DNA of 64,000 bases, taken from the NCBI GenBank assembly GCA_944322305.1, contig CALUOP010000002.1, positions 186,001 to 250,000 on the forward strand. The letters are read 5' to 3'. A program made the translations under genes and the position numbers. This stretch comes from an uncultured Coriobacteriaceae bacterium (GTDB lineage: Bacteria > Actinomycetota > Coriobacteriia > Coriobacteriales > Coriobacteriaceae). This document shows positions 10,331 to 48,679 of the stretch, piece by piece. Within the stretch, counting starts at the first letter, position 1. Each line of letters opens with the position of its first letter. The notes beneath the pieces were generated by a model that was given only the letters and a program-made list of their open reading frames with translations, did no database searches and was not told where the DNA came from.

Positions 10331-11347
10331 TGCCGTCTTATGCAGCGGCGCGGCTGGCCTGCTTGGGGTGACGGAGTAAAAGCGGCGGAGTGGGTATGCG
10401 GCGGCGCGGCGGCGTGACGGACCTAAGCGGGCGGTGAGTTTCGCGCATCGCACGAAGAGGCCTCGCATAATAGCCTGACCGGCCAACTACGAGGGCTGCC
10501 AGCGCGTGCGTTGCAAAGGTCGCCGGCACGTTGGGCGCAACGAGCTTTGTGCGCCGGGGTTGATGAATTGCGCGCTTGCCAGACGCGCGCGTTCGCCAGC
10601 CCCGGTCGGTTTTTCTCGCCTGCCGCAAGGTTGCTAGGGAAGATAGGGCTGCTTGCGCGCAAAGTGCTTGTCAGGTGCAAAGCGCCTCGGCGGTGGGTTT
10701 TCTGGGGTGACAAGTTTTCTCGTCTGACGCAGGGTTGCCGGGGGAGACGGAGCTGTTCTCGCGTTGCTTGCGCATAAAGCACTCGTCAGGTGCAAGGTGG
10801 CCGAACGGCTGGTTGCGAGGGGCGCACGTTTTTCTCGGCAGATGCTCCGGAATCGGGTGAGATAGGGTACATCCTGCCTGTTTTACTCGACAGGTGCGGG
10901 AAGTTGCGTGCTGTGCGTCCGCTAACTTGTGTATCTGCCAAAAGAAACGCGCCAAGGATCCCCATAACTCTTGGCCGCTTGTGCACAAGACGAGTAATTT
11001 GCGCACTCCCTTTGCCAAATCCAGGGATGTTGCCGCGGCGCCGATGTACCTGCTGAGAAAAACCTGCAGGTGCTCTCGCGTTCGCGTGCCTGTCGAGAAA
11101 AACGTGCGCGCCTTCTCGCGTTCGCGCGTCTGTCAAGTAAAGCGTGCGCGCTTCCTCGCGTTCGTGTACGTGTCGAGAAAAACACACCTTGCATGCAGCG
11201 CGGCGCTCCCGTCATCCTCTCGCGTCGGACAAGCGCCTGCCAGCGTTGCGCGTTTTCTCGTCGTGCGTTCTTGCGGCGCTGGGAGGGCGCCCCTGTTGGC
11301 TTCCATTGCCCGCCCTTCGCCTGCCCGCCGGCAGCCCCCTTGGGCGC
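10331..11347. repeat. Gene-free repeat field (array B): 52-bp and 40-bp phased motifs
   Basis: This 1017-bp gap lies between convergent genes and contains no credible ORF. A motif near TTCTCGTCAGGTGCAAGG recurs with its CTCG/CTTG core at 10615, 10667, 10719, 10782, 10834 and 10886 (spacing 52, 52, 63, 52, 52). A central stem GCCAAG/CTTGGC lies at 10951-10975. The motif then appears inverted as TGTCGAGAAAAAC in units starting 11051, 11091, 11131 and 11171 (exactly 40 bp). A larger hairpin (10554-10605, CCGGGG arms, followed by a T-run) could terminate nhaA transcripts. Confidence 0.75.
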
Positions 11348-36863: not shown

Positions 36864-36943
36864 GTTGTCTCGCCTTGGTCGGAAACCAAGGCAACCCCTT
36901 ACGCCCTGATTGGAAACCAGGGCACGAGCTAAGGAGTCATCCC
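36864..36943 (+). ncRNA. Structured leader of rpmE (candidate L31 autoregulatory RNA)
   Basis: Two hairpins 31 nt apart share a loop sequence: GCCTTGGT/ACCAAGGC (36872-36892) and GCCCTG/CAGGGC (36903-36923), both presenting GGAAACCA. The second ends about 8 nt before TAAGGAG. L31 leaders that bind excess L31 have been described computationally in several bacterial groups; this pair fits that kind of control. Confidence 0.6.
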
Positions 36944-45257: not shown

Positions 45258-45419
45258 CGCGGGGGCTGCGGCCTCTTACCGCTGCGTGCCGGCGCCGCTT
45301 CCGTTGAGCGTGCTACGTTGTAGAGCGTCCAGCCCTGAGGTGTCCACCCTGTTTGAACATATATAGTAGTGGGCAGGGAAAACGCGCGATGCCGGGCGGA
45401 CCGGCGCAGGGGAGGCAGC

Positions 45420-46895
45420 ATGGCACGGGTGATGTTTCGCTATCCGGAAGACGGCCAGGTAACGTGCACGGCGCCGGTGGGCTGGGACGCAGACGTCTCC
45501 AACGCCGACCTGCGGATGATCGGTTTAGGGCTGCCTGCCGAGGTTGAGCGCCTGCGTGCGGCCGGCCGGCTCTCCGAGGCGGTTGCGACCATCGACGCGT
45601 TGCTTACCGCAGGTATGGAGCCGGCGGGCGTGCAGCCCGAGCTGGTAGGGTGCCTTCGGGCGGAGCGGCACCGCATCGAGCTTACGCGCCGCGCCTTCAC
45701 GGTGACCCGCGCCGAGGCGCTTGCGACGCTGCGCGCCGAGATCCCCGGCTTTTCCGAAGCGGACCTGAACGCGCTTATCGCCCGGCGCCGGATCGAATGG
45801 CGCTTCATCGAGGGCGAGCAGCATTTCTTGGAGAACTTCATGGACTCCCTGCGCGTGTACGTCCACGAGATCCCCGGCCTGGCGCCGGCGTCCGCAGGCG
45901 ACGTTGAGGCGCGCGACGCGCTTATCGAGCGCACGCGCGCCGAAGGCGGGGCGGCCCGGCGGATCACGCTGCGGGCGCGGCTGGAGGTGCCCGGGGCGGC
46001 TGCCGGCGAGACGGTGCGCGCGTGGCTCCCGGTGCCTGCCGCCTGCGCTCAGCAGAGCGCAATCGAGATCCTTGCCGCCACCGAGGGCGCGGTCGTGGCC
46101 GAGCCGGATGCGCCTGCGCGGACCGTGTACTGGGAGTCGGATACCGTGCGCGCCTTCGAGGTGACATACCGGTACGTGGCGCGGACGCCGTACGTGGATG
46201 CGTACGCGCTGGCGGAGGGGGACGCGGATGATGCCGCGACGGTGCCGGCTGCGCTGGGGGAGGGTGACGTTGCGCCCGAGGACCTGGCCGAGCTTGAGCC
46301 GCACATCGTGTTCACGCCGTACGTGCGTGCCCTGGCCGCACGCGTGACTGCCGGCGCGCGCACGCCGCTGGCGCAGGCCCGGGCGCTGTACGACTATGTG
46401 ACCGCGAACGTTGACTACCGTTACCAGCCGCCGTATGCGCTGCTCGACAACATCGCCGACACCTGCGCCAAGTCGCTGCGCGGCGACTGCGGCGTGATGG
46501 CGGCGACCTTCATCGCGCTGTGTCGCGCGGCGGGTGTGCCGGCGCGGTGGCAAAGCGGCCTGTACGTGACTCCGGACAGCGTGAGCCCGCACGACTGGGC
46601 GCAGTTCTACGCGCCGGGCATGGGGTGGCTGTGGGCCGACTGCTCGTTCGGCTCGTCGGCACGGCGCGCGGGCGCCGAGAAGCGCCGGCGCCACTACTTC
46701 GGCAACCTCGACCCGTGGCGCATGGTGGCCAACCGCGCCTTCATGGCAGAGCTGGCTCCGGCGTGCGACGGCGTCCGGTGGGATCCGTGCGATAACCAGA
46801 TGGGCGAGGCCAGCGTGGACGGCCGCGGCCTAGACAGCGCCGAGATGCTGCGCGAGGTCGAGCTGCTGAGCATGGAGGAGCTGCCGTACGCGTAG
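45420..46895 (+). CDS. Transglutaminase-like cysteine protease-fold protein
   Basis: The protein has 491 residues. ATG 45420 follows GGGGAGGC. No signal peptide or membrane segment, so it is cytoplasmic. The C-terminal half has the transglutaminase core with the triad C357 (RGDCGVMAATFIALCRAAGV), H391 (HDWAQFYA) and D407 (WLWADCSFG). The N-terminal 170 residues are helical and not assignable. Bacterial members are often peptidases or amidases rather than cross-linkers. A TATATA/TATAGT stretch at 45359-45368 may be its promoter. Partners are unknown. Confidence 0.8.
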   Translation: MARVMFRYPEDGQVTCTAPVGWDADVSNADLRMIGLGLPAEVERLRAAGRLSEAVATIDALLTAGMEPAGVQPELVGCLRAERHRIELTRRAFTVTRAEALATLRAEIPGFSEADLNALIARRRIEWRFIEGEQHFLENFMDSLRVYVHEIPGLAPASAGDVEARDALIERTRAEGGAARRITLRARLEVPGAAAGETVRAWLPVPAACAQQSAIEILAATEGAVVAEPDAPARTVYWESDTVRAFEVTYRYVARTPYVDAYALAEGDADDAATVPAALGEGDVAPEDLAELEPHIVFTPYVRALAARVTAGARTPLAQARALYDYVTANVDYRYQPPYALLDNIADTCAKSLRGDCGVMAATFIALCRAAGVPARWQSGLYVTPDSVSPHDWAQFYAPGMGWLWADCSFGSSARRAGAEKRRRHYFGNLDPWRMVANRAFMAELAPACDGVRWDPCDNQMGEASVDGRGLDSAEMLREVELLSMEELPYA

Positions 46896-47641
46896 CGAGG
46901 CGCAGGCGTAGCAGGTCGCGTGCCGCGGGGTAGCGTGCCCGGTGCGGCATGCCCGGTGCGGCCGGTCGCATTTCCGCGCGCAAACGCCGAAGGGCTGGCG
47001 CGGTTGGTCGCCGTCATGTCATCTAGCAGCCGGTTGGTCGCCCTTATCGCATCCAGCGGAGAAGACGGCCGCGCAGTTGGTCGCGCAAGCCGCATCTAGC
47101 GTCCGGTTGCCCGCCGATACCGCGTGCGGCGACGAGAGCGCGCAGCTAGTTGGTCGCGAGAAAGACGGCTAAGTCCACGTTGGTTGCCCTTATTGCATAC
47201 AACAGCAAAGGTGTCCGCGCGGTTGGTCGCTGGTCCGACGTGCAAGGTTCGGTTGTCCGCGAGAGGCGCATCTAAGGCCCAGCTTGAACGCCCTTTCGAC
47301 ATCTAACGAGCAGTTAGCCGCTTCGGCCGCACGTAATTCTCGGAATCCAGCCCGCTGCGCGCGATAAAAGCGACCAACCAGGTTCGCCGTGTCGAAAAAG
47401 CGACCAACTGGACCCACGATGACGAAATGGCGGTCAACTGCCGCTCTGTTGGCGCTTGGGTGCAGTTTCCGCGACCAACCGACAACCGCTCGACGCTTAG
47501 GTGACGCTTCCGCGGGCAAACGTCCGCCACGGCCCTGTCCTGCGTCGCCCGCTAGGGTCACACGCCCGCTCGCGTCAGTTGCCGCCCCCAAGCTCCGCCC
47601 ACCTGTCCACCCCTCCCTCCCGCCTGCGCGGGCTCTTCACA
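46896..47641. repeat. Gene-free repeat field (array C): 73-bp units, GTTGGTCGC motif
   Basis: The 881-bp gap 46896-47776 has no credible ORF. GTTGGTCGC-like motifs have their first G at 47003, 47033, 47076, 47106, 47149, 47179, 47222 and 47252, strictly alternating 30 and 43 bp, so four degenerate 73-bp units. A GCCG-CTT-CGGC stem follows at 47317-47327. Inverted motifs GCGACCAAC end at 47378, 47408, 47438 and 47479 (30, 30, 41). Pairs 47252/47378 and 47222/47408 are exactly equidistant from the centre. Confidence 0.8.
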
Positions 47642-47656
47642 GATAAACGTTTTATC
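47642..47656. promoter_or_regulatory. Putative operator upstream of transketolase
   Basis: Perfect inverted repeat GATAAA-CGT-TTTATC, 34 bp upstream of the -35 hexamer. The AT-rich site stands out from GC-rich flanks. The regulator is not known. Confidence 0.35.
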
Positions 47657-47689
47657 ATGCAGGTCAAGGGCCCTGTTTTTACGTGAGGG

Positions 47690-47718
47690 TTACGTTTTGG
47701 ACCGTGCATCCCTATAAT
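47690..47718 (+). promoter_or_regulatory. Transketolase promoter
   Basis: TTACGT (47690-47695), 17-bp spacer, TATAAT (47713-47718): the best consensus promoter in the window. The leader is about 50 nt. Confidence 0.7.
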
Positions 47719-47776: not shown

Positions 47777-48679
47777 ATGAGCAACACGCTTGGCGCGCAA
47801 CAAGCGCGCACCGACGTCGAGGTCGCCCTCGTCGCCAACCGTCTGCGCCATGACATCATCAGCATGCTCGCTGAGGCGGGTTCCGGACACCCGGGCGGCT
47901 CGCTTTCCGCAGCTGACATCATGGCCACGCTCTTCTTCGCAAACGTTCTAAGCTACAACCCCGACGATCCCAACGATCCCGACCGCGACCGCTTCATCCT
48001 GTGCAAGGGCCACGCCGCCCCTGCGCTGTACGCGGTTCTCGCCGAGATCGGCTACATCCCGCGCGAGGAGCTCGCCACCCTGCGTAAGCTCGGCTCGCGC
48101 CTCCAGGGCCACCCCGACTGCCACTGCGCCCCGGGCATCGAGGTGTCCACCGGCTCGCTGGGCCAGGGTCTCTCCATCGCCTCGGGCCTGGCGCTCGCGT
48201 TCAAGCAAGACGCCGCCCACGCGGGCGAGGATGCGCCGGCAAAGCGTGTCTACGCCCTCACCGGCGACGGCGAGCTGCAGGAGGGCCAGAACTGGGAGGC
48301 CTTCATGTTCGCCGCGCACCGCGGGCTCGACAACCTGTGCGCGGTTATCGACCTCAACAACCTGCAGATCGACGGCCACGTAACCGACGTGTGCAGCTTG
48401 GGCGACCTCTGCGGCAAGCTCAAGGCCTTCGGCTGGCACGTGGTCGAGGTGAACGGCCACAGCATCCCCGAGCTGCGCGCCGCCTTTGCCGAGGCCGCCG
48501 AAACCACCGGCGCGCCCACGGCCGTCGTGGCCCACACGGTCAAGGGCAAGGGCGTCTCCTTCATGGAGGACGCCTGCAACTGGCACGGCAACGCCCCGAG
48601 CGCCGAGCAGGCCGCCCAGGCGTTAGCGGAGCTCGACGAGGCCCAGGCCGCTTTGGCCGCCGCCTGCAAGGAGGCTTAA
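47777..48679 (+). CDS. Transketolase, N-terminal subunit
   Basis: The protein has 300 residues. ATG 47777 follows GAGGGGAG. It is the thiamine-diphosphate-binding half of a split transketolase: GSGHPGGSLSAADIMATLFF, KGHAAPALYAVLAEIG, and the ThDP motif GDGELQEGQNWEAF...NLQIDG. It transfers two-carbon units between sugar phosphates in the pentose phosphate pathway, with the C-terminal subunit 3 bases downstream. Two-gene transketolases are common in anaerobic Gram-positives and archaea. Confidence 0.95.
   Translation: MSNTLGAQQARTDVEVALVANRLRHDIISMLAEAGSGHPGGSLSAADIMATLFFANVLSYNPDDPNDPDRDRFILCKGHAAPALYAVLAEIGYIPREELATLRKLGSRLQGHPDCHCAPGIEVSTGSLGQGLSIASGLALAFKQDAAHAGEDAPAKRVYALTGDGELQEGQNWEAFMFAAHRGLDNLCAVIDLNNLQIDGHVTDVCSLGDLCGKLKAFGWHVVEVNGHSIPELRAAFAEAAETTGAPTAVVAHTVKGKGVSFMEDACNWHGNAPSAEQAAQALAELDEAQAALAAACKEA

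Follow-up and report, generated by a model that had tools for sequence, protein, structure and literature searches.

Interspersed repeats in bacteria (REP, BIME, ERIC) are usually read as hairpins. Transposon ends of the Tn7 and Mu type carry polar arrays of 20-30 bp protein sites, mutually inverted, and in plasmid iterons and partition-site arrays, direct repeats in helical phase serve cooperative binding. REPINs, which occur between genes as mirrored doublets, form hairpins whose spacers commonly show compensatory changes, and they are linked to RAYT transposases (PMC3116915). The Lrp/AsnC-type protein Ah-BarR uses several semi-palindromic sites two or three helical turns apart, with the DNA wrapped on the oligomer (PMC10201364).

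Here we describe an array in a 64-kb window (the whole stretch of DNA analysed, G000:C2:186001-250000) of G000, an array-bearing Coriobacteria genome available as a 2.35-Mb draft. No described repeat matching these arrays was found in the literature for the Coriobacteria group. Like REP, REPIN and BIME elements, they form high-copy, intergenic, lineage-specific populations of dyad-arranged short motifs, 72 of 72 dyads lying between genes, but they show no covariation, have no associated RAYT and carry helically phased units in long polar arms. Lrp/AsnC-type operators are single and have few sites, whereas the sites here are polar, 26 bp long and grouped around a dyad centre, about 3 to 20 of them per array at 72 loci. 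The arrays also differ from Tn7- and Mu-like ends in their conserved middle, undefined outer ends and lack of cargo, and from iteron and partition arrays in their 72 chromosomal intergenic loci, their dyad layout and a basic spacing of three rather than two turns.

Anatomy of the window array

The window array comprises 15 units with the formula GTTGGTCGC(N5)CGaCAtgtAA between 47003 and 47520, ten direct and five inverted, flanking a 66-bp dyad. The array and its neighbours are laid out as follows.

45369-46895, + strand: transglutaminase-like gene (PF01841), upstream of the array; absent from G003 together with the array
47003-47011, + strand: direct unit, exact GTTGGTCGC, tenth from the dyad
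47033-47041, + strand: direct unit, exact GTTGGTCGC, ninth from the dyad
47076-47084, + strand: direct unit, exact GTTGGTCGC, eighth from the dyad
47106-47114, + strand: direct unit, degenerate GTTGCCCGC, seventh from the dyad
47149-47157, + strand: direct unit, exact GTTGGTCGC, sixth from the dyad
47179-47187, + strand: direct unit, GTTGGTTGC, fifth from the dyad
47222-47230, + strand: direct unit, exact GTTGGTCGC, fourth from the dyad
47252-47260, + strand: direct unit, degenerate GTTGTCCGC, third from the dyad
47283-47291, + strand: direct unit, CTTGAACGC, second from the dyad, overlooked in the preliminary description
47313-47378: 66-bp dyad centre, left half starting with GTTAGCCGC, right half ending with GCGACCAAC (model R1 match, G000:C2:233313-233378)
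47370-47378, - strand: inverted unit, exact GTTGGTCGC, first from the dyad
47400-47408, - strand: inverted unit, exact GTTGGTCGC, second from the dyad
47430-47438, - strand: inverted unit, degenerate GTTGACCGC (2 mismatches), third from the dyad
47471-47479, - strand: inverted unit, exact GTTGGTCGC, fourth from the dyad, after a 41 bp step
47512-47520, - strand: inverted unit, degenerate TTTGCCCGC, fifth from the dyad, after a 41 bp step, overlooked in the preliminary description
47636-47700, + strand: transketolase promoter-proximal stretch (CACAGATAAACGTTTTATC), which G001-G003 also retain and which lies downstream of the array's end
47777-48679, + strand: transketolase N-terminal subunit gene (PF00456), downstream neighbour

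Exact GTTGGTCGC occurs eight times in the 64-kb window against 1.1 expected, a count reached by 0 of 100 shuffles, and all eight copies fall inside 47003-47479. No convincing gene overlaps the array, nor does any tRNA or Rfam family; the sole Rfam match is the L31-Coriobacteria leader at 36903, on which the assignment of the genome to Coriobacteria is based, with none above the gathering threshold in the array region.

The preliminary description had proposed eight direct motifs alternating by 30 and 43 bp, then four inverted motifs at 30 bp, the whole forming a giant imperfect palindrome. The alternation is exact (30/43/30/43/30/43/30) across the direct starts 47003, 47033, 47076, 47106, 47149, 47179, 47222 and 47252, three of the eight being degenerate with 1-2 mismatches, and the left arm then reaches the dyad in steps of 31 and 30 bp. 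The inverted arm is real, but the last of its proposed steps, to 47471, measures 41 bp and not 30. The mirror pairs put forward imply a centre at 47315, one unit off because the innermost direct units at 47283 and 47313 (GTTAGCCGC) had been missed; the actual dyad at 47313-47378 matches the 66-bp model with 43 bits (E 8.5e-11) and has its symmetry axis at 47345.5. What survives of the palindrome is the dyad symmetry of motif order: the two arms mirror each other in that order only, their spacers mismatch and pairing finds no support. Identity among the four 73-bp units of the left arm is 54% overall and 43% outside the motifs, where shuffles give 26%, which suggests old tandem duplication. A CRISPR-like or tandem direct array was also rejected, since there are two opposed arms with helical-step spacing rather than one orientation with constant spacers.

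Helical phasing and dyad symmetry

Successive exact same-strand copies lie 30 (20 cases), 31 (4), 41-43 (8), 60-62 (9) or 71-73 bp (6) apart, with longer spacings of 82-83 (4), 92-93 (4), 104 and 114 bp. Each of these 57 spacings is at most 1-2 bp off a multiple of about 10.4 bp (vector length 0.92). With the 30/31 class removed (spacings >33 bp, n=33), R is 0.88 at 10.35 bp, which 0 of 5000 random sets reach. Some of the longer steps merely add up two or more short ones around an intervening degenerate unit, but 41-43 and 51-52 bp are classes in their own right. Scanning with a matrix recovered 733 units pointing to a dyad, against about 65 expected from background, in the same spacing classes. 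Of 142 arms, 140 leave the dyad with a first step of 30-31 bp, and later steps vary more. Across the 72 arrays of this one genome, spacing is far from random, the reverse of the random spacing among strains that the preliminary description had named as counter-evidence, and the 30/43 rule of the window array is the local form of this genome-wide spacing rule.

Steps from A/T to A/T peak at unit positions 1, 11-12 and 22, a recurrence every 10-11 bp that suggests bent or wrapped DNA and is consistent with bending toward one face. Site separation by whole helical turns is a trait of Lrp/AsnC-type wrapped operators that the arrays share, and an array could work in the same manner.

Base pairing leaves no such signature. 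RNA folding of both strands of the window array, raised in the preliminary description, is not better than in shuffles (z -1.1 and -1.4). Across 31 aligned centres, 70.9% of cells pair from arm to arm against 72.7% with partners shuffled, and there is no excess of two-sided changes across the dyad in these 31 centres. At variable positions, mirrored outer units agree at 0.335 versus 0.325 for units of different arrays, and the centre halves at 0.403 versus 0.448; adjacent same-arm units agree at 0.389, a trace of tandem duplication. Mutual information within 583 units peaks between neighbouring bases. Because there is neither folding excess nor covariation, we read the dyad symmetry as both halves obeying one consensus, as in a duplex site. 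An RNA or single-stranded DNA hairpin was rejected on the evidence of folding, pair counts, the mirror test and mutual information.

A genome-wide family and its spread

G000 contains about 72 dyads, found by a sequence-only 66-bp model, and about 700 units. Exact GTTGGTCGC occurs 175 times against 62 for the reversed control, with 32 tandem pairs against 0, and convergent copies in the first 50 loci are mostly 57, 87, 118 and 148-150 bp apart, or about 57+30k. The 31 aligned centres yield an ungapped 66-bp consensus with both strands pooled, GTTGGTCGCTCAAACGGCACGTAACTCCCGGAATTCCGGGAGTTACGTGCCGTTTGAGCGACCAAC. Arrays hold about 3 to 20 sites across the 72 loci. All 72 dyads are intergenic by simple codon-usage gene calls, and the 69 classifiable arrays lie between tandem (46), convergent (13) or divergent (10) genes. 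They are not evenly placed along the G000 chromosome, their spacing along it being random-like (CV 1.04).

The motifs are constrained: in six duplicated array pairs, which are not fully independent, motif positions differ by 8.4% against 19.2% for spacers (p 2e-7). Gene conversion among arrays could be a partial source of this constraint between duplicates. The arrays have spread recently within the species. Those at unrelated loci are 85-95% alike over 250-430 bp, the similarity fading inside the array and not at its border; in the duplicate pair L231/L293, the 95.6% identity is confined to the part running outward from about the dyad. In a separate case, the array at L249:2157-2364 contains a 96% identical tandem duplication of >110 bp, offset by 93 bp and with several units inside, and this is arm growth through tandem duplication.

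In G003, the sister species, of which about 400 kb and individual loci were read, seven orthologous intergenic loci and the window site have no array. At the latter, G003 keeps the transketolase promoter stretch and lacks both the array and the transglutaminase-like gene upstream of it; relative to G003, the window and L290 sites each carry gene plus array as a joint insertion. Seven G000/G003 comparisons of empty sites, in which the flanks have diverged, showed no target duplication. Three dyads are present in G003, two of them in recently shared DNA, as their stretches are 98-99.7% identical to G000. L239 versus L297 and L291 versus L296 each carry an array and show 98-99.7% identity between species that are otherwise about 85% identical, which points to recent exchange. 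At L239, identity to G003 rises abruptly from 87% to 99.7% at a point about 120 bp beyond the array; at L291 the two sides are equally identical (98.6/98.4%).

Two further species of the genus had no convincing dyad arrays, and among 397 genomes of the order, scanned under strict filters, arrays appeared in the G000 and G003 species only. The family is thus almost species-specific. Phage and plasmid DNA held no similar sequence; in viral contigs there were 17 single matches to the exact tandem pattern and none to the 66-bp dyad pattern. A pattern scan of genome contigs, a collection outside which the array's own species lies, gave no recognised dyad array among the matches listed, where most multi-copy loci repeat the motif on one strand, several of them within coding-like sequence. 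In a Pirellulales MAG (JAUWHT010000068, L098:1715-1803), a single GTTGGTCGC precedes three inverted copies at intervals of 28-29 bp; in this unrelated phylum they may be chance or a coding repeat.

Two genes were considered as movers. The sole serine recombinase gene of G000 (G000:C10:61194-61820; L290:2995-3624) adjoins a large array in a segment absent from G003. By our estimate, chance would place one such gene next to any of the roughly 72 arrays with a probability of about 7%, which is not improbable, and as a driver of the arrays it was rejected, its 29 relatives in other genomes having no arrays beside them. The single Y1/REP-associated-type transposase gene (PF01797, RAYT-like) at G000:C4:265091 has no GTTGGTCGC within 1.5 kb. 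This gene (L319:360-2070, G000:C4 about 265 kb) is flanked by GGTTGGGGACGTGTTCCATCTGACCC inverted repeats, and its sister-species relative has a different flanking repeat (L320). A RAYT/REP origin was rejected, as the only PF01797 gene of G000 is flanked by other repeats.

A putative protein platform and rival readings

On balance, we think it likely that the window array belongs to a lineage-specific family of duplex-DNA assembly platforms for one sequence-specific DNA-binding protein. Its sites, about 26 bp long (CGGTTGGTCGC-N5-CGaCAtgtAA) and all oriented toward the 66-bp dyad, would be bound by protomers that lie on one face of the DNA and touch, because whole helical turns separate the sites. 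The most regular part is the dyad together with its two to three flanking units per side, spaced 30-31 bp; assembly would begin there and extend outward over as many units as the array has, a number that varies. The protein would be cooperative and probably DNA-bending. Binding, cooperativity and a start at the dyad are what we infer from the arrangement of the sites.

A more tentative extension, to which we give rather less than even weight, is a chromosome-wide nucleoprotein platform of about 72 arrays and 700 sites, in which a dedicated protein would form filaments or wrap DNA outward from a nucleation point, and which would have spread in one species by copying. As to role, our guess falls on either chromosome architecture or a mobile or selfish element exploiting such a protein, with neither preferred to the other, and regulation is a further conceivable role; near absence from the sister species is odd for a core architectural function, and the random-like placement of arrays along the chromosome also counts against the platform reading.

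The units might instead be transposase or recombinase sites, as in Tn7- or Mu-like ends, within a non-autonomous, MITE-like element spread by transposition or recombination. The array-less G003 counterparts at seven loci and the window site, the 85-95% likeness of arrays at unrelated loci and the recombinase gene adjoining an array in a G003-absent segment all fit. We nevertheless consider this unlikely: there are no fixed ends or terminal inverted repeats, and a variable unit number around a conserved middle is a transposon in reverse; similarity between duplicates fades inside the array rather than at its border, and 29 recombinase relatives elsewhere lack neighbouring arrays. Still less probable is a site-specific recombination site with accessory arm sites, with the dyad core (AACTCCCGGAATTCCGGGAGTT) as crossover and the arrays as borders of exchanged segments. 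L231/L293 identity running only from about the dyad outward, the L239 identity jump about 120 bp beyond the array and the joint insertion of gene plus array at the window and L290 would suit it; at most sites, however, the array stands alone with no gene swapped, the L291 flanks are equally identical, and ordinary homologous recombination between repeats accounts for the cases.

It is very doubtful that the arrays act single-stranded, as REP/REPIN/BIME-type palindromes or as RNA hairpins (terminator or mRNA stabiliser). Intergenic position, high copy number, dyad symmetry and the presence of one PF01797 gene recall such elements, but neither folding excess nor covariation was found, 10 of the 69 classifiable loci lie between divergent genes, helical phasing is meaningless for RNA, and what borders the PF01797 gene is another repeat, with no GTTGGTCGC. 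Hardly credible, finally, is an operator of the neighbouring transketolase gene, even with about 116 bp separating the end of the array, upstream, from the conserved promoter-proximal stretch: the same arrays adjoin unrelated genes at 71 other loci, and G001-G003 retain the promoter stretch without an array.

Under the protein-platform reading, the family displays a duplex-DNA logic recognisable from sequence alone, in phased spacing and dyad symmetry without pairing. Its about 700 natural site variants and 72 arrays offer material for working out the binding rules of the protein, and they raise the question of how such a load of putative protein sites spread in one species when its sister has nearly none.

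Other repeats were seen alongside. A second intergenic palindromic repeat, (GTAAGACGAA)ATGCGCCAAATTAGGCACGGCCTAATTTGGCGCAT, often lies near phased arrays and is possibly a REP-like element (copies at L238:500-550, L238:2669-2715, L251:2695 and 2939, L281:1855, L289:517, L291:4199 and L293:2898). Within the window, copies of GAGAAAAAC lie on either strand in 10609-11183 together with a tandem repeat of 40 bp (TCTCGCGTTCGCGTGCCTGTCGAGAAAAACGTGCGCGCCT), which may be a further array family, and 250-404 carries four copies of GCATGCGCA within 155 bp, in both orientations.
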